Below, piece after piece: positions 5,266 through 19,815 of a stretch of 22,570 bases of DNA. The notes under the pieces were generated by a model. It did no database searches. It saw only the letters and a program-made list of their open reading frames with translations, and had not been told where the DNA came from. Source of the stretch: a virus; IMG/VR virus record IMGVR_UViG_3300018424_000283, positions 1 through 22,570 of that record; one strand, 5' to 3'. The number at the start of each line of letters is the position of its first letter. Within the stretch, counting starts at the first letter, position 1. The position numbers and the translations under genes were made by a program.

Positions 5266-5763
5266 GTGTGGTATATAGACAAATTGCCTGAAGGTATAAT
5301 TGACGATAGCTATAAAACATTGCCTTACATTAAAGAACCATTTAATGATCCTACAGCAGTTAAAGAATGGATACAAATTTATGGTAATATTTTTGACACA
5401 GGTGAAATGGTAGATTATAGACACCCACAACCGGAGTGGACACAAAAAATTATTGAGTATACTGGTTTAGGTTTAGCAGGTAGTAGTTACTATAAAATGA
5501 ATCCTGGAAAAATACTTCCTTACCATAGAGATGCATATGTAAGATATATCGATTATCACAAATTAGAAGAAGTTGAAAGAATACATCGTGCTATTATATT
5601 TTTAGAGGACTGGCAGCCGGGACATATATTTGAAATAGACGGATATCCTTTAACAAATTACAAATCTGGAACTATAGTAGTATGGCAATATGACACTCCA
5701 CACCTTGCCGCTAACTTAGGTACTAGTGACAGATACACTCTTCAAATTACCGGAATAAAATGA
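5266..5763 (+). CDS. Cupin-fold Fe(II)/2-oxoglutarate hydroxylase-like protein (aspartyl/asparaginyl hydroxylase type)
   Basis: 165 residues from a GTG start. The C-terminal two thirds look like a double-stranded beta-helix oxygenase. KMNPGKILPYHRDAYVRY at 77-94 gives an H87-x-D89 metal pair, PGHIFEIDG and SGTIVVWQYDTPHLAANLG supply the distal H146, and the last strand RYTLQITG supplies R156, the usual 2-oxoglutarate anchor. The pattern is closest to the aspartyl/asparaginyl beta-hydroxylase-like group seen in many marine phages. It starts one base after the amidinotransferase stop and overlaps the next gene by four bases, so it belongs to the same cassette. It could hydroxylate the cassette's sugar product, an amino-acid side chain or a nucleobase; nothing here decides. 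The fold call is moderately secure. Confidence 0.6.
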   Translation: MWYIDKLPEGIIDDSYKTLPYIKEPFNDPTAVKEWIQIYGNIFDTGEMVDYRHPQPEWTQKIIEYTGLGLAGSSYYKMNPGKILPYHRDAYVRYIDYHKLEEVERIHRAIIFLEDWQPGHIFEIDGYPLTNYKSGTIVVWQYDTPHLAANLGTSDRYTLQITGIK

Positions 5764-11059: not shown

Positions 11060-11892
11060 TGCACTAATTCCATATAATTGTTTAACATATATGGTTTTAA
11101 GAAATCTTTTTCAGTATAATGTAAAATTCCTAACTGTTGAAAATTTCCTAATTTTATTTCGCCTTTATGATTCATATATACGTCTACACAATCTTGCCAG
11201 TTTTTCTTTTTATTTGTCCATCCTTGTATCTGTGACTTCATATGGATAAAGTTAGGAAAGCTAGAAACTTTGTTAGTAATTTTATCTTCACAATCTAGTA
11301 TTATTGTAACAATTGCACTACACACATCAATACTACACCAAGACGGTCTGTTTTCTTTCAAAAATATTTCATAAAATTTTTGCCAATTTTGTACCACAAA
11401 TTCTAACCATTTATAAAACTTGTGCGCAAAATCGCCTTTATTAAAATAATGAAATCCGCTGTATATATTAGGTAAATTATTACTTACAAATGTTTTTCGA
11501 TAATATGTGTCAGTTATAATGTCTCCTCTATAGGTAAAGACTTTACTTGTATAAAACATTTCATAATTTTCTAAAAAGTCCCACCAAGAAGATATAGATT
11601 GTAAAATTAAAGTATCTGTATCAAGTACAATTGTTCTATCATACGGTGATGAATGATAAATTTTCCATCTATTTTGAATCTTCCATTCAAATTCTGCGGC
11701 ATCATCATCCCACATTATAGGAATAATCTTGTCAAATAAGTTTTTGTACTTTGCTGGAACTACATCGTCAGTAATAATACTTATTAGTTCTGTAGGATTA
11801 TGTTTTTTCAAACTTAGAGCAAGTAGACAAGCTTGTTGTACATAATTAACTTGTTCATTATTCTGTGCAAGTACAACTATACCTTTACTCAT
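11056..11892 (-). CDS. DxD glycosyltransferase-like protein (GT8-like), paralogue of 11885-12736
   Basis: 278 residues. The N-terminus MSKGIVVLAQNNEQVNYVQQACLLALSLKKHNPTELISIITDD is a GT-A Rossmann start. TIVLDTDTLIL at 87-97 has the DxD motif (D91, D93), and PNIYSGFHYFNKGD resembles the acceptor-loop region of GT8-like enzymes (a Gly before an aromatic, then Asn). GILHYTEKDFLKPY near the end resembles the H-x(2-5)-K-P/W tail in which His helps bind metal in GT8. It overlaps both neighbours (8 and 4 nt) in the operon. The paralogue upstream shares the start and the LDTD motif. It likely transfers a sugar from a nucleotide donor; specificity is unknown. Confidence 0.7.
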   Translation of the reverse strand: MSKGIVVLAQNNEQVNYVQQACLLALSLKKHNPTELISIITDDVVPAKYKNLFDKIIPIMWDDDAAEFEWKIQNRWKIYHSSPYDRTIVLDTDTLILQSISSWWDFLENYEMFYTSKVFTYRGDIITDTYYRKTFVSNNLPNIYSGFHYFNKGDFAHKFYKWLEFVVQNWQKFYEIFLKENRPSWCSIDVCSAIVTIILDCEDKITNKVSSFPNFIHMKSQIQGWTNKKKNWQDCVDVYMNHKGEIKLGNFQQLGILHYTEKDFLKPYMLNNYMELVQ

Positions 11893-12736
11893 ATCCTACC
11901 TCGTCTATTATTCTATTTAGACTAAATTTATTCATTACGTGTACACTTTGATCTTTAATAGAAATAGCTGTATATTCGCCTCTGTAATTTTCTTTTTCTA
12001 CTAAAAAAATAAATTTATTATCTTCTAATTTCCACAAAATGTCTCTATCTATTGTATATAAATGCTTTCCTGGCAATTCTGCAATAAAACTACCTCTAGA
12101 AAATCCATTCATAATATGACCTGCTATACTAAATGCAAAATCATTCCTAAATAATGAGCTTTCTAGCTGATATACTGTTGTGTAATGACTCCAATTTTCT
12201 TGTATGTGCTTAATTAAGTCAAAATATATTTTGTTAAGTTCAGTTTTTCGAAAAAAAACTACAGTAGCCCAATAAAAGTCTATACTGTAATCGCTTATAT
12301 AATCAAACTCTCTTTCGTCTCTTACTTTTGCAATATCTTCTGATTTTTTAAACATTTGAAGATCATTTGGAGAATCAAAACAATTAGATAGTAAATTATT
12401 AGAAATTATATAATCAGTATCCAACAATAAAGTTTCTTCATAAGGAGACAAATCGTATGCTTCTACTCTATAGTTATTTTTAAAATTTAGTTTCTGGCTA
12501 TAAAGAGTTCCATCGTGATAACTTTTTTTGTTAGGACTGTCGTCTTTGTAATCAATTTTAATAATTTTTTCAAATGTGTCCTCAGGGAAAGAATCTTGAA
12601 GGTATAAGACACTATCTGTAATAATACTTACAGGAATATTTAAATATTTTTTTATTCTGTTTGCAAGGAATACTGCTTGTTTTACATAATCAATTGTATC
12701 GTTATTTCTTGCAATTAAAAGTGCGCCTTTAGTCAA
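11885..12736 (-). CDS. DxD glycosyltransferase-like protein (GT8-like), paralogue of 11056-11892
   Basis: 283 residues. MTKGALLIARNNDTIDYVKQAVFLANRIKK matches the start of the next gene's product almost position by position. YEETLLLDTDYIISN at 99-113 carries D106-x-D108. The middle (FYWATVVFFRKTELNKIYFDLIKHIQENW) aligns with the neighbour's SGFHYFNKGDFAHKFYKWLEFVVQNW. A late VHVMNKFSLNRI may replace the neighbour's HYTEKD tail; histidine is kept but the KP pair is not. The tandem arrangement with an 8-nt overlap points to duplication followed by strong divergence, presumably giving two donors or acceptors. No membrane segment is visible. Confidence 0.7.
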   Translation of the reverse strand: MTKGALLIARNNDTIDYVKQAVFLANRIKKYLNIPVSIITDSVLYLQDSFPEDTFEKIIKIDYKDDSPNKKSYHDGTLYSQKLNFKNNYRVEAYDLSPYEETLLLDTDYIISNNLLSNCFDSPNDLQMFKKSEDIAKVRDEREFDYISDYSIDFYWATVVFFRKTELNKIYFDLIKHIQENWSHYTTVYQLESSLFRNDFAFSIAGHIMNGFSRGSFIAELPGKHLYTIDRDILWKLEDNKFIFLVEKENYRGEYTAISIKDQSVHVMNKFSLNRIIDEVGYE

Positions 12737-13085
12737 TTTCTAATCCTACTAAATCAGTAACACTCCTATTTTTTTTGAGTTTTTCGTATTCGACAAAATA
12801 ATTATTAGACGATGTAAAATACGTATTCAATATTTCATTGTAAAATTCTTGTATATTGTCAATTTGTAAGGGTATGTTATTATCATCTACTAATACAATC
12901 TCATCTTGCTCCGATGACAACATTGTGTAGCAAAAATTTATTAGTTCTTTAGTAACTGTGAACTGGCAACCGTCATAAAAATAAATTAGATCTTCTAAAT
13001 ATTTTTCTTTTAACAATCTTTTCTGGTTGTTAAGTGTAACCATAAAATTAGAAAATTCAATAGCTTTTTCTAAACGCTCGTCCAT
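12729..13085 (-). CDS. Small acidic conserved-type phage protein, first gene of the seven-gene operon
   Basis: 118 residues from ATG 13085-13083, chosen because AGGAG lies seven bases upstream; a TTG at 13121 would extend it into the promoter. MDERLEKAIEFSNFMVTLNNQKRLLKEKYLEDLIYF begins as a charged helix. The protein continues with CQFTVTKELINFCYTML, an acidic stretch (DEIVLVDDNNIPLQI), and ends with YEKLKKNRSVTDLVGLEID. The last block resembles uncharacterised proteins I recall from marine T4-like phages. No catalytic motif is seen; a small adaptor or regulatory protein is possible. It overlaps the next transferase by 8 nt. Confidence 0.6.
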   Translation of the reverse strand: MDERLEKAIEFSNFMVTLNNQKRLLKEKYLEDLIYFYDGCQFTVTKELINFCYTMLSSEQDEIVLVDDNNIPLQIDNIQEFYNEILNTYFTSSNNYFVEYEKLKKNRSVTDLVGLEID

Positions 13086-13149: not shown

Positions 13150-13872
13150 CTACATTTTCCGCTGATGATCTAGAAATTTGTTACCTTGGGTGTCTTCACC
13201 ACGCCAATATCTCTTTCCTACACCGTGCGGTTTTTTCTTGTCGACGCTGTTGCGTTCAATTCCTGCATTTTTCATTTCTTGTTGTTCAAGTTGAATGGCG
13301 TTTTCACTAAAATAATTTTCAGCAAGTTCTATTTCAAATTTATCAACAAAATATCTAGGAATAGGCATAACTGCACTTATTATATCTCCTTTTTTTACTT
13401 CTACTACTAGCTTAGGAGAAAGTATTTTTAAGTTAAAAGTAAAGTCTCTACGTAAATTATCTGTTTCAACTACTGCGGTCATATTAGATAAATTTGGTAT
13501 AAAATAATTAGGAGGATTCATTACCATTAAATTAATACCGGGAGGAGTTCTAAATGTAAATCTATTTTGTACAGTAATAAGTCCACTTCCAAAATGAGCA
13601 CTTATTGTTTGTTTACTGCAAGGACTTGTTTTTATTGTAACATCATTAGGCGCTTCTCCACCATTCCATTCTGCTGTAAAATCACAACTACTCCTTATTG
13701 CAAAACCGTATTGATTTCCAATGACTACAGGCAAACAGTGAGCAACGTGTTTGTTGACCCAGTCTCTTGTTTTCATTCCTTTTAATGGTTGTACTATATC
13801 TAGATAATCATCTTTATGATATATCGATTCTGGTACAACTAATATTTTGTTTTTTGGAAAATTATTAAGCAT
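13150..13872 (-). CDS. DUF6065-like protein
   Basis: 240 residues. The signature order fits what I remember of DUF6065 proteins: a DWVNKHVAHCLPVVIGNQYGF start, FTAEWNGGEAPNDVTIK, SAHFGSGLITVQNRFTFRTPPGINLMVMNPPNYFIPN (residues about 92-127), AVVETDNLRRDFTFNLKI and VVEVKKGDIISAVMPIPRYFVD. The second half before residue 185 is a beta-rich domain. The C-terminal 40 residues are charged with a KRYWRG block. The function of the family is unknown; it is common in marine phages and some bacteria. It overlaps the upstream oxygenase gene by 8 nt, so the two are probably co-expressed. The charged tail resembles short basic tails seen in several DUF6065 homologues, but I cannot verify that here. Confidence 0.68.
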   Translation of the reverse strand: MLNNFPKNKILVVPESIYHKDDYLDIVQPLKGMKTRDWVNKHVAHCLPVVIGNQYGFAIRSSCDFTAEWNGGEAPNDVTIKTSPCSKQTISAHFGSGLITVQNRFTFRTPPGINLMVMNPPNYFIPNLSNMTAVVETDNLRRDFTFNLKILSPKLVVEVKKGDIISAVMPIPRYFVDKFEIELAENYFSENAIQLEQQEMKNAGIERNSVDKKKPHGVGKRYWRGEDTQGNKFLDHQRKM

Positions 13873-14392
13873 TTTTTGTCAAAAATAGAACTATTGTATA
13901 TCTTTCACCAGATTTAACTTCAGTTACTCCGTGTAAATATTCTTTTGTACCTTCAAATTGTACAAGTGTTCCCGGAGTTGTTTCTGGTTGTAAATTTTGG
14001 TTTGGAAAAAATATTTGGCCGCCTTCGTAATCTTCATTAAGATAGATTAATACACTATAATGTCTATTAGGATAAGGGTGTAGAGAACCGTCGAGATGTT
14101 CACAATCTGCGTGAGGAGGGTCTAGTTTATCTCCTTTGCGCCATCTTACCAACTGAAATGTTTCTATCAAACATTTGGTTTTGTATTTTGTTTCTATAAT
14201 TTGTCGTACGTTTAATCCTATGTCGTCTAACAATTGTTGTATATCTTTATTAGATATATTACTTTTATGAATAAATTTTTCAGACCAATGGTCGTTTGTA
14301 ACTATCCAGTCATTTGTTGTTGTTACATAATCTACGAGACTGTTAATATTATTCTTATTTAAAAAATTATTATCTATATAAATGTCCTGCAT
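13865..14392 (-). CDS. Prolyl-4-hydroxylase-type Fe(II)/2-oxoglutarate oxygenase
   Basis: 175 residues, a compact version of the P4Hc domain. LDPPHADCEHLDG at 90-102 has the H94-x-D96 metal pair, HYSVLIYLNEDYEGGQIFFP at 111-130 is the typical YLN-x(5)GG-x-(F/L) strand pair, and TPGTLVQFEGTKEYLHGVTEVKSGERYTIVLFL at 139-171 supplies H154 and R164 (2-oxoglutarate). All four expected ligands are present. Such proteins hydroxylate proline or other residues, or nucleic acid bases. It lies just downstream of a virion protein with three poly-proline linkers, which would be an obvious if unproven substrate. It is separated from that gene by 47 nt and overlaps the DUF6065-like gene by 8 nt. Confidence 0.86.
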   Translation of the reverse strand: MQDIYIDNNFLNKNNINSLVDYVTTTNDWIVTNDHWSEKFIHKSNISNKDIQQLLDDIGLNVRQIIETKYKTKCLIETFQLVRWRKGDKLDPPHADCEHLDGSLHPYPNRHYSVLIYLNEDYEGGQIFFPNQNLQPETTPGTLVQFEGTKEYLHGVTEVKSGERYTIVLFLTKNA

Positions 14393-14439
14393 ACTTTATA
14401 TATTTAAAATACACAGGACACTATATAGTAATTGGTTTA
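14393..14439. other. 47-nt intergenic segment with ACTATATAGT palindrome
   Basis: Between the giant virion gene and the oxygenase gene lies the perfect 10-bp palindrome ACTATATAGT (14420-14429). A TTAAATA string (minus strand, 14407-14401) lies only eight bases before the oxygenase ATG, too close to act as its late promoter. A 7-bp imperfect stem (14434-14440 with 14448-14454) spans the virion gene's stop without a T-run. I see no convincing terminator or promoter here; read-through is likely. Confidence 0.3.
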
Positions 14440-17400
14440 CTACGGAAGCAAACCGCCTGATATTGTGAACGAAGCACCATCTGAACCTGCGCCTGTTTGC
14501 GCAACTCCTACAGTATAGAAACCAGTTGGAAGTTGAGCAGATATAGTATCAGTACCGTTTGCATCTGTTGTTCTACTACCAGATGTATATGCTGCGCCGT
14601 CTTTGTACACTGAATACGCATACGATGTATTTGGTATTCCGCCTGTGATACTGACATACGCTGTCAAACCTACTGCTACTGCCGTAACCTGAATAGCATA
14701 CGTCGGAGGTGGCGGAGGCGGTGGTGGTGGCGGAGGCGGAGGTGGTGGCGGAGGTGGTGGCGGAGGTGGTGGCGGAGGTGTTGAGACTGCCGAAACTATT
14801 GTAAACGCTTGATCTACTACAGTGCCATTTAAAACTAAATCTGCTCTCCAAGTACCTACTTGCCCGATACCTGTACTTGTACTTCCACTAGCACTCGAAC
14901 TAAATAATCCTTGGAATACATTATCTTTATAAGCGTTTACGGCCACAGTTGTTGCATTGCTACTGCTCCAGGTAATAGTATAAATGTCTGATGTAGTTCC
15001 AGATAGAGGAGATATACTAACACTTCCAGTTGGTCCAGGGGGCGGTGGTGGAGGTGGTGGAGGTGGCGGAGGTGGTGGCGGAGGTGGTGGTGGTGCTGCA
15101 CTTACAAAGATAGTATCTGTATCTAGTGTATCTGTACCGTGCGCTAGTGCTGCTGTATGGATTCCTCCTGCAGTAGCAGTAAAAGTTCGAGAACCAGAAG
15201 TTCCATTAACTGGGCCAACAACTATACTATTCAATCCATAATAAGCATAAGCTGTAACTGTAGTGGTTGTATTACTACTTGTCCAGGTTACTGTTATTGT
15301 GTCTCCTACGTTATATACACCTGATCCTTCAAAATAAATATTTCCAGTTGGTCCTGGTAAGCCGACTGCAATAGTATCACTTGCTGTTACGTACTTTAAT
15401 GTGTTAGTGGCATCATAATAAGATGATGCAATACTTGCTCTCCAATTGCCTGTATTAGCTAGAACTTCGTATGTTAAGGCGCCACCCGGTTTTGTAGTTG
15501 AACTTACAACTGCTGTAGTAGACGATGGCGGATATATAGCAGCATAGGTAGTATTCGCACCAGTACCAGCGGTGTAATCAGCACGTATGGTTTCTCCTAT
15601 AAACGCAGACGCAGCGTCAAACGCAATAGTTGGGTTTGGAATAGTTACTGCTTGATTAACAGTTAATGCTGGATTAGTTGATACTGTAATTTCTAGGGAT
15701 GTATCAATTAAATTATATATTTTAATATAACCAGTCCAGGTACCTACTTGGTCTGCTACGCCAGATGCTGATCCTGACTTTGTGTTATACCTATTAGGAT
15801 TAACATTACCTGATGGACTTATTACATAAATGTCATACCCAAATAAGGTTGCAGAGTTATAGCCGCCGTCCCAAGATAATGTAAATGAAGTAGAATTTAC
15901 TGTACCCGATGTTGGTGACCAAGATATTGCAACATTATCATAAGTAGGTGAGGGGTTCGCAACAGGTGTTTGGCTAGTGTCATTGATAGTTATTGACTGA
16001 CTAGCAACTGCTCCGCCCGATGCTGTTTTTCTGACGTTAATTGTTTTAGATTCTGCACCTTCTGTGGTTGCATCTGCTATAGGACTTAAACTAAAACTTC
16101 CGGAATTATTAAACATCGAGAATGATCCACTAGATGTACTAAAATCTGATCCGCCCGTTACATCCCAATATAATGTAGGTGCACTTGCCCATCCTGTAGC
16201 TGTTACTGTATAAGTACCAGAACTTCCTTCGTTAATATTACTGGGTCCACTTATGCTATAAGTTGGTTCAACTGGAGTGACTGCATAGTATGCACTTGTA
16301 CCGTCAGAAAAGTTAACAGTTATTGTTACACCTTCTCCGAAGCTTGTAGACATTGTAACAGGAAAAGTAGCTGTTCCACTAGCATTGGTTGTGCCCGACC
16401 CGCTATTGCCTGAAGTTAATTCTGTAGCAGACCAGGTAAAGTTTGTATTAGGGCGAGCATAATAGATATATACATCACCATCCGGATTTCCGGTAGCAGA
16501 TACAATACTAACACTAGGACTATATACTGCTGTTACCGTAAATGTAAGTGAACTAGCTAGGTCAGGGTTAGGCACTGATACATTATATGTTCTTTGTCCT
16601 GCTGAACCAAAAGATACTGTAGAAGTATAATTGCCGCTACTGTTAAAAGTTCCTGTAAATACGTCACTGCCCGAAACACTAAACGATCCATTAGGTCGAC
16701 CTGTTATAGTTAAAGTTGCATTTTGATTTACATCAGGCGAACTAGGACTAATAGATATAGTGCTTTGATATACATCTGTTACAGTATAATTTAACGTTGT
16801 TGAGTTGTTACTAAATGCTTCTGCAATAGTAAAACTATATGATCCTGCAGGGGAAGTTTGTATTTGTATTGTTGCCGTTCCATTAGAATCAAATACAAAA
16901 GCACTAAGGGATTGACCATTAATACTAAACTGTCCGCCGGGGAAACCTCCAGCTATAGTAACTTCTCGATCTGCGCCTGTCGCGCCTTCTATTACTGTAA
17001 AATTATTTCTACTTAAACCTAGCACAGCAGTAATTGTATAGTTTGTCGAAGCTGTCAAAGGGCTATAACCAGACACATTTTCAAAATGTGAAGTATATGT
17101 ATAATTTCCAGGTTTTGCTTGTAACCTAGTAAAAACTAATTGTCCATTTGCAGGAATAGTTGCCCCTGTTCCAGGTAATCCTTTTGGTACATCAGCCACA
17201 GACGGATTATTACTAGTCACAGAACCAAGATGTTCGGTATTAGGAGGACCAACTACAGTATGTGTGAACGAATTATACACAGGAGAAGATGTCGGATTAA
17301 CTGTTGTACTGTTTACTCCCGAAGGTAAATCATCATTAATAAGCGTTAGTGAAGTACTAGCACTATCACCTGTATCTCGATGTGTCCAAGTTACCGTCAT

Positions 17401-19815
17401 AGTTTTGTTGCCATCATTGACAGATTCTTGTAGGAACTGCTTTACAATACCTACATATCCGCTGACGCCGCCGCCCGATTGTGCTTTCGAACCACTTAAT
17501 GCACTGTAGGTGCTAGTAAAGTCTCCGGCGGTTATTGTACCAGAAATCGACCAATCCCAAATATCTCCCGCGTTATAGCCGGTTGACTCACATTGTAATA
17601 TAATAGAATCACCTTCATTAGCTGATGTTATGAGACTTTGTAGTGCAGTACTCCAAAAATTTACTGTAATGCTTTTTGCAATTGGTGTTGTTGAAGTGTC
17701 TTGTATTATAGCAAATATAGCATTTGAACTATTGTTAGGTCCACTTACTCGTGTTCCAAAAATTTCGGATCCTTCAGTTGTAGAATCTGCAACAGATGTT
17801 CTAGTAAATGTGTATGAACCATCTCCTGTGTTTGGAAGATTAGTAATTGTTACAGATGCTGTGCCGCTCATAGCCCCGCCAACAAAGTCTGCTGCAACAG
17901 CATTTGTTCCACTAACTGCATTTACGTTAGACCAACTTACTCCGCCAGTTGTAGCTTCCCAGTTGCTTACTGTTCCTGTATATGTAAAGGTTTTGTATGT
18001 AGTTTCGTCACCGAGAGTTGGAGAACTATATCCAGTAGTAACATCTAAATCACTATTTACTACAGGAACGTTTGCAATTTCTGATTTTCCTGTCCAATAA
18101 ATTTTAGTGCTTTGACCATTACCGTCTGATTGAAGAACTGTAAAATCATATGTTATGCCTGCACCTCTAGCATCCAACACTGTTGTTGGTGTTACACTTA
18201 CCGGTACTGTAACGCTTTGTCCAACACCTATGGTATAATTTTTACTTGCAACTCCGCTGGCTGAACTTACACCGTCGACATCTACAGTCCAGGCAGCAGG
18301 TCTGTTTGTTTCTTGAACTGTTATTGTTCCGCTACTATTGCCGGTGTTTGTAACAGTAATGTTTGTACTTGCCGAAGTATTGACAATTACATCTCCAATA
18401 TCCCACGCAGTATTTTGAGTAAGGTATGCACTTGGGGTAACGCTAAAAGTGAATACCGCCGGTGGTGGAGGTGGTGGTGGTGGAGGTGGTGGGGGCGGTG
18501 GTGGGACACTAGTATCATTAATAACTATACTAATGGAATCTGCACCATTATCTAGACTAAGTGTTAATGTTTCAGGACCTTCTGCAAGTTGATCAGACAC
18601 AGGACTAATTACTAAAGAATTTAAAGTTCCAACTGTAAAGGCTCCTTGCAAAGGTATTCCAATGTCTGCTTGGCTAGTTCCTGTAATAGTATAAGGGATA
18701 ATAGTACCATTAGAAACATTTGTAGTTGTAAGAGTAATACTAGCACTGCTGCCTTCATTGACACTAGCAGCTGATCTACTTAAAGTATAAGACGGAACAG
18801 GTGGCTGGCTTGCACTTAATTGTACTATTGTGCTGCCCACAGGAAGACTTGCTGTGGGAAATACTACAGTATCGTAAGCTGTACCATTAATATTTACTGT
18901 TCCATCTGGAATTAGTAGAGATACAGAACTTGTCCAATCACCTAATACAGCTTCATCTATCGAAAAACCTCCGGGATTGGGATCTGTAAATAAAACTTTA
19001 AATTGAATTGTTCTACTGCTTGTCTGTAATGCATATAACTCATATGCACTTTGACTATATGTATTACCTGCATCTTTTCTATAACAAAGTTGATAACTAC
19101 TACTTAAATTTGTAGCACCGATATTTTGACCTTGGCCTACACCTTTATTACTAAATGTACTATCGCCTTTAAAACTAACAACTCCCATATTGTTCATTTC
19201 GGTTTGCCAGTCTATTGTTTTTTGCTGATTAAGATTATAGCTTACACTTGCATTAAATCGTATTTCACCACCTGCATTAAAAAAATGTCTACGAGCAGCA
19301 TCTGAAGGGAAAGTAACACTAAAAATATGGTTTATATAACTAGTCCAATTTCCGCTTACAGAATTTAAATATGTACTTGATATTTGTGTACCTGAACTAT
19401 TATTTAAATTTACTGTAGCTGCCTGATCAACAGTGTCGATTTCAAATTTATCATTTTCAATTTGAGTCATTAGGTTTTCTAATGACTGGATATATGCGAT
19501 TTCTATTAGATCTGCATTCACAGGATCATTTTCAAAATCTCCAACAATAAAATCATTTATAGATACATTTCCAGCACCCACTTGATGTGCTCTACATCTA
19601 ATTAGATCAACATAAAGATCTTCATATTGCTGTGCAGTTATTTTGTCTGAAGTTGGAGGATTAACAGTGCGAGTACCTTGCACATCGCTATTAGCATTTA
19701 AAGTTTCTCCGTAACCGAAACTTGGAGTACTAGCTAATGATAAACCTAGAACTTTTTCTAACCTATTTTGAAGGTTGTTAAATCTAGATGCTAAAATAGT
19801 TGTAGTTGTAGGCAT
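14440..19815 (-). CDS. Giant modular virion protein (tail fibre/adhesin-like) with Calx-beta and Ig-like domains and three poly-proline linkers
   Basis: 1791 residues. The N-terminal part (about 1-340) is a helical start followed by a beta domain with RHFFNAGGEIRFNASVSYN at 176-194, a block I recall from virion structural proteins of marine T4-like phages. It probably anchors the protein. A Calx-beta-like unit follows (343-437, SVNEGSSASITLTT ... SIVINDTS), then a 15-proline linker (438-452). Next come about ten Ig-like/beta-sandwich units rich in Ser, Thr, Gly and Asn, including a second Calx-beta unit near 1184-1280. A 19-proline linker (1575-1593), an Ig unit, a 25-proline linker (1680-1704) and a terminal beta domain ending GGLLP complete it. 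No signal peptide is present, as expected for a virion protein. GC is visibly higher than in the neighbouring small genes. It is likely a long extended fibre binding host surface, but the receptor is unknown. Confidence 0.78.
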   Translation of the reverse strand: MPTTTTILASRFNNLQNRLEKVLGLSLASTPSFGYGETLNANSDVQGTRTVNPPTSDKITAQQYEDLYVDLIRCRAHQVGAGNVSINDFIVGDFENDPVNADLIEIAYIQSLENLMTQIENDKFEIDTVDQAATVNLNNSSGTQISSTYLNSVSGNWTSYINHIFSVTFPSDAARRHFFNAGGEIRFNASVSYNLNQQKTIDWQTEMNNMGVVSFKGDSTFSNKGVGQGQNIGATNLSSSYQLCYRKDAGNTYSQSAYELYALQTSSRTIQFKVLFTDPNPGGFSIDEAVLGDWTSSVSLLIPDGTVNINGTAYDTVVFPTASLPVGSTIVQLSASQPPVPSYTLSRSAASVNEGSSASITLTTTNVSNGTIIPYTITGTSQADIGIPLQGAFTVGTLNSLVISPVSDQLAEGPETLTLSLDNGADSISIVINDTSVPPPPPPPPPPPPPPPAVFTFSVTPSAYLTQNTAWDIGDVIVNTSASTNITVTNTGNSSGTITVQETNRPAAWTVDVDGVSSASGVASKNYTIGVGQSVTVPVSVTPTTVLDARGAGITYDFTVLQSDGNGQSTKIYWTGKSEIANVPVVNSDLDVTTGYSSPTLGDETTYKTFTYTGTVSNWEATTGGVSWSNVNAVSGTNAVAADFVGGAMSGTASVTITNLPNTGDGSYTFTRTSVADSTTEGSEIFGTRVSGPNNSSNAIFAIIQDTSTTPIAKSITVNFWSTALQSLITSANEGDSIILQCESTGYNAGDIWDWSISGTITAGDFTSTYSALSGSKAQSGGGVSGYVGIVKQFLQESVNDGNKTMTVTWTHRDTGDSASTSLTLINDDLPSGVNSTTVNPTSSPVYNSFTHTVVGPPNTEHLGSVTSNNPSVADVPKGLPGTGATIPANGQLVFTRLQAKPGNYTYTSHFENVSGYSPLTASTNYTITAVLGLSRNNFTVIEGATGADREVTIAGGFPGGQFSINGQSLSAFVFDSNGTATIQIQTSPAGSYSFTIAEAFSNNSTTLNYTVTDVYQSTISISPSSPDVNQNATLTITGRPNGSFSVSGSDVFTGTFNSSGNYTSTVSFGSAGQRTYNVSVPNPDLASSLTFTVTAVYSPSVSIVSATGNPDGDVYIYYARPNTNFTWSATELTSGNSGSGTTNASGTATFPVTMSTSFGEGVTITVNFSDGTSAYYAVTPVEPTYSISGPSNINEGSSGTYTVTATGWASAPTLYWDVTGGSDFSTSSGSFSMFNNSGSFSLSPIADATTEGAESKTINVRKTASGGAVASQSITINDTSQTPVANPSPTYDNVAISWSPTSGTVNSTSFTLSWDGGYNSATLFGYDIYVISPSGNVNPNRYNTKSGSASGVADQVGTWTGYIKIYNLIDTSLEITVSTNPALTVNQAVTIPNPTIAFDAASAFIGETIRADYTAGTGANTTYAAIYPPSSTTAVVSSTTKPGGALTYEVLANTGNWRASIASSYYDATNTLKYVTASDTIAVGLPGPTGNIYFEGSGVYNVGDTITVTWTSSNTTTTVTAYAYYGLNSIVVGPVNGTSGSRTFTATAGGIHTAALAHGTDTLDTDTIFVSAAPPPPPPPPPPPPPPPPPPPGPTGSVSISPLSGTTSDIYTITWSSSNATTVAVNAYKDNVFQGLFSSSASGSTSTGIGQVGTWRADLVLNGTVVDQAFTIVSAVSTPPPPPPPPPPPPPPPPPPPPPPPPPTYAIQVTAVAVGLTAYVSITGGIPNTSYAYSVYKDGAAYTSGSRTTDANGTDTISAQLPTGFYTVGVAQTGAGSDGASFTISGGLLP
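14704..14778 (-). repeat. 25-codon poly-proline tract with a 12-bp tandem unit
   Basis: Twenty-five consecutive proline codons (residues 1680-1704). On the plus strand the last 42 bases (14737-14778) are 3.5 copies of CGGAGGTGGTGG. It joins the last Ig-like domain to the terminal domain. Confidence 0.95.
15037..15093 (-). repeat. 19-codon poly-proline tract
   Basis: Nineteen consecutive proline codons (residues 1575-1593). Two copies of the 12-bp unit CGGAGGTGGTGG on the plus strand (15067-15090) are shared with the tract at 14704-14778. Confidence 0.95.
18460..18504 (-). repeat. 15-codon poly-proline tract
   Basis: Fifteen consecutive proline codons (residues 438-452), following the first Calx-beta unit. 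Codons are mixed and the 12-bp unit of the other two tracts is absent. Confidence 0.95.

Follow-up and report, generated by a model that had tools for sequence, protein, structure and literature searches.

A predicted prolyl hydroxylase gene adjoins and co-varies with a polyproline tail fiber gene in a T4-like virus and its relatives

Prolyl hydroxylases are already known from chloroviruses and mimivirus, so the new part of the locus described here is the pairing of a dedicated enzyme with a bacteriophage fiber. The chlorovirus enzyme vCPH of PBCV-1 (5C5T/5C5U) hydroxylates proline-containing peptides in vitro; its role is given as "unknown," and hydroxyproline was undetected in purified PBCV-1 virions despite the viral P4H (PMC7019647). 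Mimivirus encodes prolyl and lysyl hydroxylases for its collagens, i.e., viral enzymes modifying virus-encoded structural repeats (PMC9546862). Cyanophages carry 2-oxoglutarate (2OG)-Fe(II) oxygenases of the same superfamily, sometimes near fiber genes, with DNA repair or 2OG metabolism guessed as their function (PMC3037559); marine phages widely encode EGLN3-like folds (PMC12774648), and the use of P4Hs by aquatic viruses "remains cryptic" (PMC9301287). The open-access papers searched contained no description of polyproline fibers accompanied by a phage P4H. Here, "P4H" serves as a label and makes no claim about the hydroxylated position.

The window, i.e., the whole stretch of DNA analyzed, is the 22,570-nt IMG/VR virus record IMGVR_UViG_3300018424_000283 (positions 1 to 22,570), and unless a relative is named, coordinates are those of the window. 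It is a piece of a T4-like virus, as indicated by the myovirus genes of a related 104-kb record, which include SbcC/SbcD-type (gp46/47-like) endonuclease genes and baseplate wedge and hub genes. All features discussed at this locus lie on the minus strand. The gene at 14440 to 19815 encodes a tail-fiber-type protein of 1,791 residues, assigned from the ORF and from synteny with relatives, in which this gene ends a run of tail-fiber and virion structural genes according to PHROG matches just upstream. The protein consists of a conserved N-terminal region (18505 to 19815), also present in short fibers of about 310 to 330 residues that have no distal part, followed by repeated distal domains, polyproline rods, and a C-terminal tip domain (14443 to 14703) located after the last proline run, homologues of which also occur in fibers without polyproline. 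The 59 prolines in three runs counted by the first-pass annotation were confirmed as P15 (residues 438 to 452; 18460 to 18504), P19 (residues 1575 to 1593; 15037 to 15093), and P25 (residues 1680 to 1704; 14704 to 14778), the last with mixed codons and partly with 12-nt repeats. An artifact of short-repeat DNA was ruled out by the mixed codons and by conservation of the runs across relatives that share about 70% P4H identity. Among 221 comparison loci not picked for polyproline (about 3.3 Mb), no ORF had a proline run of at least 10. In one relative, the fiber gene just upstream of the polyproline fiber (L003, 2 to 4519) was observed to have polyglycine runs of 9, 7, 6, 5, and 5.

The enzyme gene (13865 to 14392; 175 residues) starts 47 nt after the fiber gene, the gap first reported. 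Its P4Hc-type active site is complete, with H94, D96, H154, and R164 exactly at the positions initially assigned, and thus displays the superfamily hallmark of an HxD...H iron triad with a basic 2OG anchor; the match to PF13640 (40.9 bits against a cut-off of 27) likewise places the protein in the 2OG-Fe(II) oxygenase superfamily. In an alignment of the enzyme family, the iron-ligand columns showed no variation in 28 relatives, and the AlphaFold2 model reached a pLDDT of 95.4. Together with the rarity of polyproline ORFs in the comparison loci, these features put the observation beyond chance. A profile search of the PDB gave P3H1 as the best match (6.6e-15), with the 2OG anchor, the Arg located ten residues after the second His, aligned with the Arg of P3H1. 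By fold comparison, the closest structures were P3H1 (Z 18.4), PBCV-1 vCPH (Z 17.9; rmsd 2.9 over 162 residues), PHD2 (17.8), and a Pseudomonas P4H (17.5), all equivalent within error, with mimivirus lysyl hydroxylase L230 (16.4) close behind; Foldseek ranked PBCV-1 vCPH first. Since the nearest solved structures by both profile and fold are prolyl hydroxylases, the best-supported class predicted from the model is peptidyl-prolyl hydroxylase, C3 and C4 hydroxylation not being readable from sequence. The name P4H given previously is therefore right as to the prolyl hydroxylase fold but too exact as to the "4," the best-matching solved enzyme being a prolyl 3-hydroxylase. The PHROG annotation of the enzyme, "DNA endonuclease," was rejected on the basis of the catalytic residues and fold. 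Cyanophage genes called "DNA endonuclease," such as NC_026924 gp024 (L307, 9848 to 10333), also match the enzyme's 2OG oxygenase family, and the labels of PHROG 2297 and 274 look wrong.

Each of the known systems differs from this locus. vCPH is likewise a small virus-encoded prolyl hydroxylase, but it belongs to a eukaryotic algal virus, whereas here a candidate substrate gene adjoins the enzyme gene and co-varies with it. The mimivirus substrates are collagen repeats rather than pure polyproline, and L230 hydroxylates lysine. P3H1 and PHD2 are about 20% identical to the window enzyme and act on unrelated substrates, and the window enzyme is without accessory domains. Algal P4H (3gze, a structure containing a (Ser-Pro)5 peptide) shares the fold at Z 16.5, but hydroxyproline-rich glycoproteins of algae and plants are glycosylated components of cell walls, whereas here the partner is a fiber of a bacterial virus and glycosylation is unsupported. 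The cyanophage oxygenases are 28 to 43% identical over part of the protein, and no polyproline was found near the five examined. Wherever the fiber gene is readable, close homologues at 100% and about 70% identity to the enzyme directly follow a polyproline fiber, with runs of P15/19/25, P14/17/26, or a single P36, and the enzyme is the sole PF13640 match in the records searched, a 104-kb one included.

A syntenic census was compiled from relatives gathered in two ways, by the fiber N terminus and by a conserved downstream gene, the latter search being blind to both P4H and polyproline. The downstream gene (11885 to 12736) encodes a DTD motif and is glycosyltransferase-like by motif only, with no significant match in Pfam or the PDB; of the relatives returned by the downstream-gene searches, the best 80 of 335 and the best 80 of at least 557 were used, and this blind route likewise yielded all P4H-positive types. 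The census comprised 55 nonredundant loci at the same genome position, all records being fragments, with a conserved 119-aa gene (12729 to 13085) delimiting the variable position on its downstream side. P4H was present between the fiber and the 119-aa gene at all six loci with a proline run of at least 20 and at none of the 49 loci whose longest run was at most 6, where a gap of 49 to 114 nt holds no gene (Fisher 3e-8, relatedness ignored). The first-pass annotation had considered that P4H being equally common beside fibers without proline runs would speak against its idea; the opposite distribution was found. The jump from runs of 6 without enzyme to 20 with enzyme suggests a length requirement. 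On a tree of two flanking genes, P4H and polyproline each change four times, always jointly, and all four independent pairs were concordant (sign test P = 0.125, the floor for four events). Fiber length as the cause was ruled out by the fibers of at least 500 residues, among which P4H accompanied 5/5 with polyproline and 0/7 without (P = 0.0013).

Natural contrasts between related loci provide further controls. Loci L209 and L216, with flanks 92 to 94% identical in DNA, differ by one 2.28-kb insert, which comprises the polyproline fiber extension and the P4H gene. L197 and L199 differ by a fiber extension that has no long proline runs, and no P4H gene accompanies it. L009 and L140/L142 have in common the proximal fiber, repeated distal domains, and tip domain; L009 has P36 before the tip together with P4H and a gene for a DUF6065 protein, whereas L140/L142 have a cysteine-containing linker and neither gene. 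In the latter two fiber C termini, the rod's place before the same tip domain is taken by a cysteine-containing repeat (NCSGTTLVEQIADGSGGS...SPTCGY). Total proline content was rejected as the cause, as L140/L142 have 126 to 128 prolines (6%) with no long runs and no P4H, and so was tip-domain identity, as homologous tips occur in fibers without P4H. The rod and the enzyme can move as one cassette, so that their co-occurrence is partly linkage; with each transfer counted once, the effective sample is the four changes plus two outside contexts.

These two contexts are virus groups unrelated to that of the window and with different polyproline proteins. In one (L235 to L247), the P4H gene is convergent with a gene for a protein of roughly 1,150 residues bearing up to P15 and Hint domains; in L236 (10572 to 14036), this structural-type protein has about four Hint-like repeats split by polyproline runs. 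In the other (L312 to L323), a DUF6065-P4H fusion is encoded three genes downstream of a 224- to 231-aa protein with P18 to P23 and a Hint domain. The isolated phages PSTNGR1, JWF, and 2-1, which have Hint-domain homologues, contained no polyproline, P4H, or DUF6065 in the stretch read and thus offer no isolate for bench work. Within the fiber position itself, lineage B (L190, L209) has a P4H 29 to 33% identical to that of lineage A, with PF13640 scores of 25 to 26, just under the cut-off of 27, and no DUF6065. Polyproline was the one common feature found across all four settings. Because the two outside groups were found while exploring, one via the enzyme and one via polyproline, they are supporting rather than confirmatory.

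DUF6065 accompanies P4H in lineage A. In the window, its gene (13150 to 13872; 240 residues) overlaps the enzyme gene by 8 nt, and the product is a clear member of the family (PF19541, 136.7 bits against a cut-off of 26.6); in L310, DUF6065 is fused to the P4H domain. It probably assists the enzyme in some lineages but is dispensable in others. The predicted core resembles dUTPase (Z about 11, rmsd about 3 over about 115 residues), though its partner is a prolyl hydroxylase, and with a model mean pLDDT of 63.7, the dUTPase-like fold is a lead only. In L325 to L391, DUF6065 occurs within tandem arrays of 2OG-Fe(II) oxygenases, often 6 to 10, near large tail-type genes; these arrays, from many viral contigs, are without polyproline.

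The pairing is not universal. Most sampled viral cases of polyproline are without a nearby P4H, and the reverse is common too: in the loci read, relatives of the enzyme occur beside replication genes or within arrays of oxygenases, and polyproline is absent. The survey of P4H beside polyproline proposed by the first-pass annotation was positive at the fiber position. Among 41 viral records with polyproline genes, PF13640 matched two, including one from the window enzyme's own family; relative to polyglycine controls, these 41 records showed no useful enrichment. A scan of bacterial genomes gave only P4H-like domains, none with polyproline nearby. The effect is confined to certain virus groups.

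Because related viruses without proline stretches lack the enzyme, the enzyme probably hydroxylates the fiber rods. The best explanation of the sequence comparisons, to which we assign a probability of roughly 0.7, is that it is a peptidyl-prolyl hydroxylase modifying the polyproline rods of the adjoining fiber. The rod prolines would be the substrate, oxidized in the infected cell with 2OG, Fe(II), and oxygen, presumably before the fiber is assembled. Polyproline forms a rigid polyproline-II (PPII) helix with a rise of about 3.1 Å per residue, and 4-hydroxyproline favors PPII. At this rise, P15, P19, and P25 would add a spacer of about 18 nm per chain. The rods may act as PPII spacers bearing the C-terminal tip domain, and stiffening or protecting the spacer would be the simplest purpose of hydroxylation. 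A point against this explanation is that prolyl, lysyl, and other peptidyl hydroxylases are not told apart by fold; the negative result for hydroxyproline in PBCV-1 virions (PMC7019647) is another.

That shared fold, together with the travel of enzyme and distal fiber as one unit, also leaves room for the distal or tip domains being hydroxylated at another kind of residue (Asp, Asn, Lys, or an isolated Pro), with polyproline as a passenger of the cassette; this is unlikely, given that homologous distal and tip domains in L140, L142, L185, L197, and L173 come without P4H and that the proteins of the other two contexts have only polyproline in common with the window fiber. An action on a host protein, such as EF-Tu, or on a small molecule, the fiber end being an insertion hotspot, would fit the frequent carriage of 2OG oxygenases by marine phages, in which they can adjoin polyproline-free fiber genes (PMC3037559, PMC12774648), and the structural kinship with P4Hs of Bacillus and Pseudomonas that modify or bind EF-Tu. 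This, too, is improbable, as it leaves the joint presence of enzyme and polyproline unexplained; non-polyproline viruses have no gene at the position, and a PF13640 match was found anywhere in the record in just 5/49 of them, although these are soft negatives because the profile misses lineage B. Most doubtful by far is that hydroxylated prolines are then glycosylated by neighboring glycosyltransferases, in the manner of the hydroxyproline-rich proteins of plants and algae: the window has sugar-pathway genes (UDP-sugar dehydrogenase and DegT aminotransferase), but the "many glycosyltransferases" described in the region came down to one subthreshold GT2 match in Pfam (569 to 1885), the two conserved downstream candidates gave no significant Pfam match, and a PDB search with the first was likewise negative, and such candidates, bearing no recognizable glycosyltransferase domain, occur at 6/6 P4H-positive and 48/48 P4H-negative loci, i.e., without the co-variation expected of a glycosyltransferase linked to the hydroxylase. 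The original idea thus survives in its link between P4H and polyproline and is unsupported in its glycosylation step.

The carriers of the gene pair are certain marine bacterial viruses, and hydroxylation of the rods by the adjoining enzyme would be new for bacterial viruses. If correct, phages would mature their fibers by a modification otherwise familiar mainly from collagen and the cell walls of plants, and the small enzyme could be used for producing hydroxylated polyproline in bacteria. As the locus predicts a concrete substrate and comes with natural controls, it makes the role of a viral prolyl hydroxylase directly testable. We lean, by a little, toward a general phage module of repeated origin or spread, whose dedicated prolyl hydroxylase, in some cases joined by the dUTPase-fold DUF6065, would mature polyproline rods of virions. 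On that reading, no earlier virion protein of a bacterial virus would have contained hydroxyproline, and a viral polyproline hydroxylase would have its natural substrate assigned for the first time. Elsewhere in the window, an ORF at 5266 to 5763, without Pfam or PDB support, has an HRD...H...R pattern like that of aspartyl-hydroxylase-type oxygenases, and a related virus record carries a 5,270-aa ORF amid its tail and baseplate genes (L397, 1933 to 17745).
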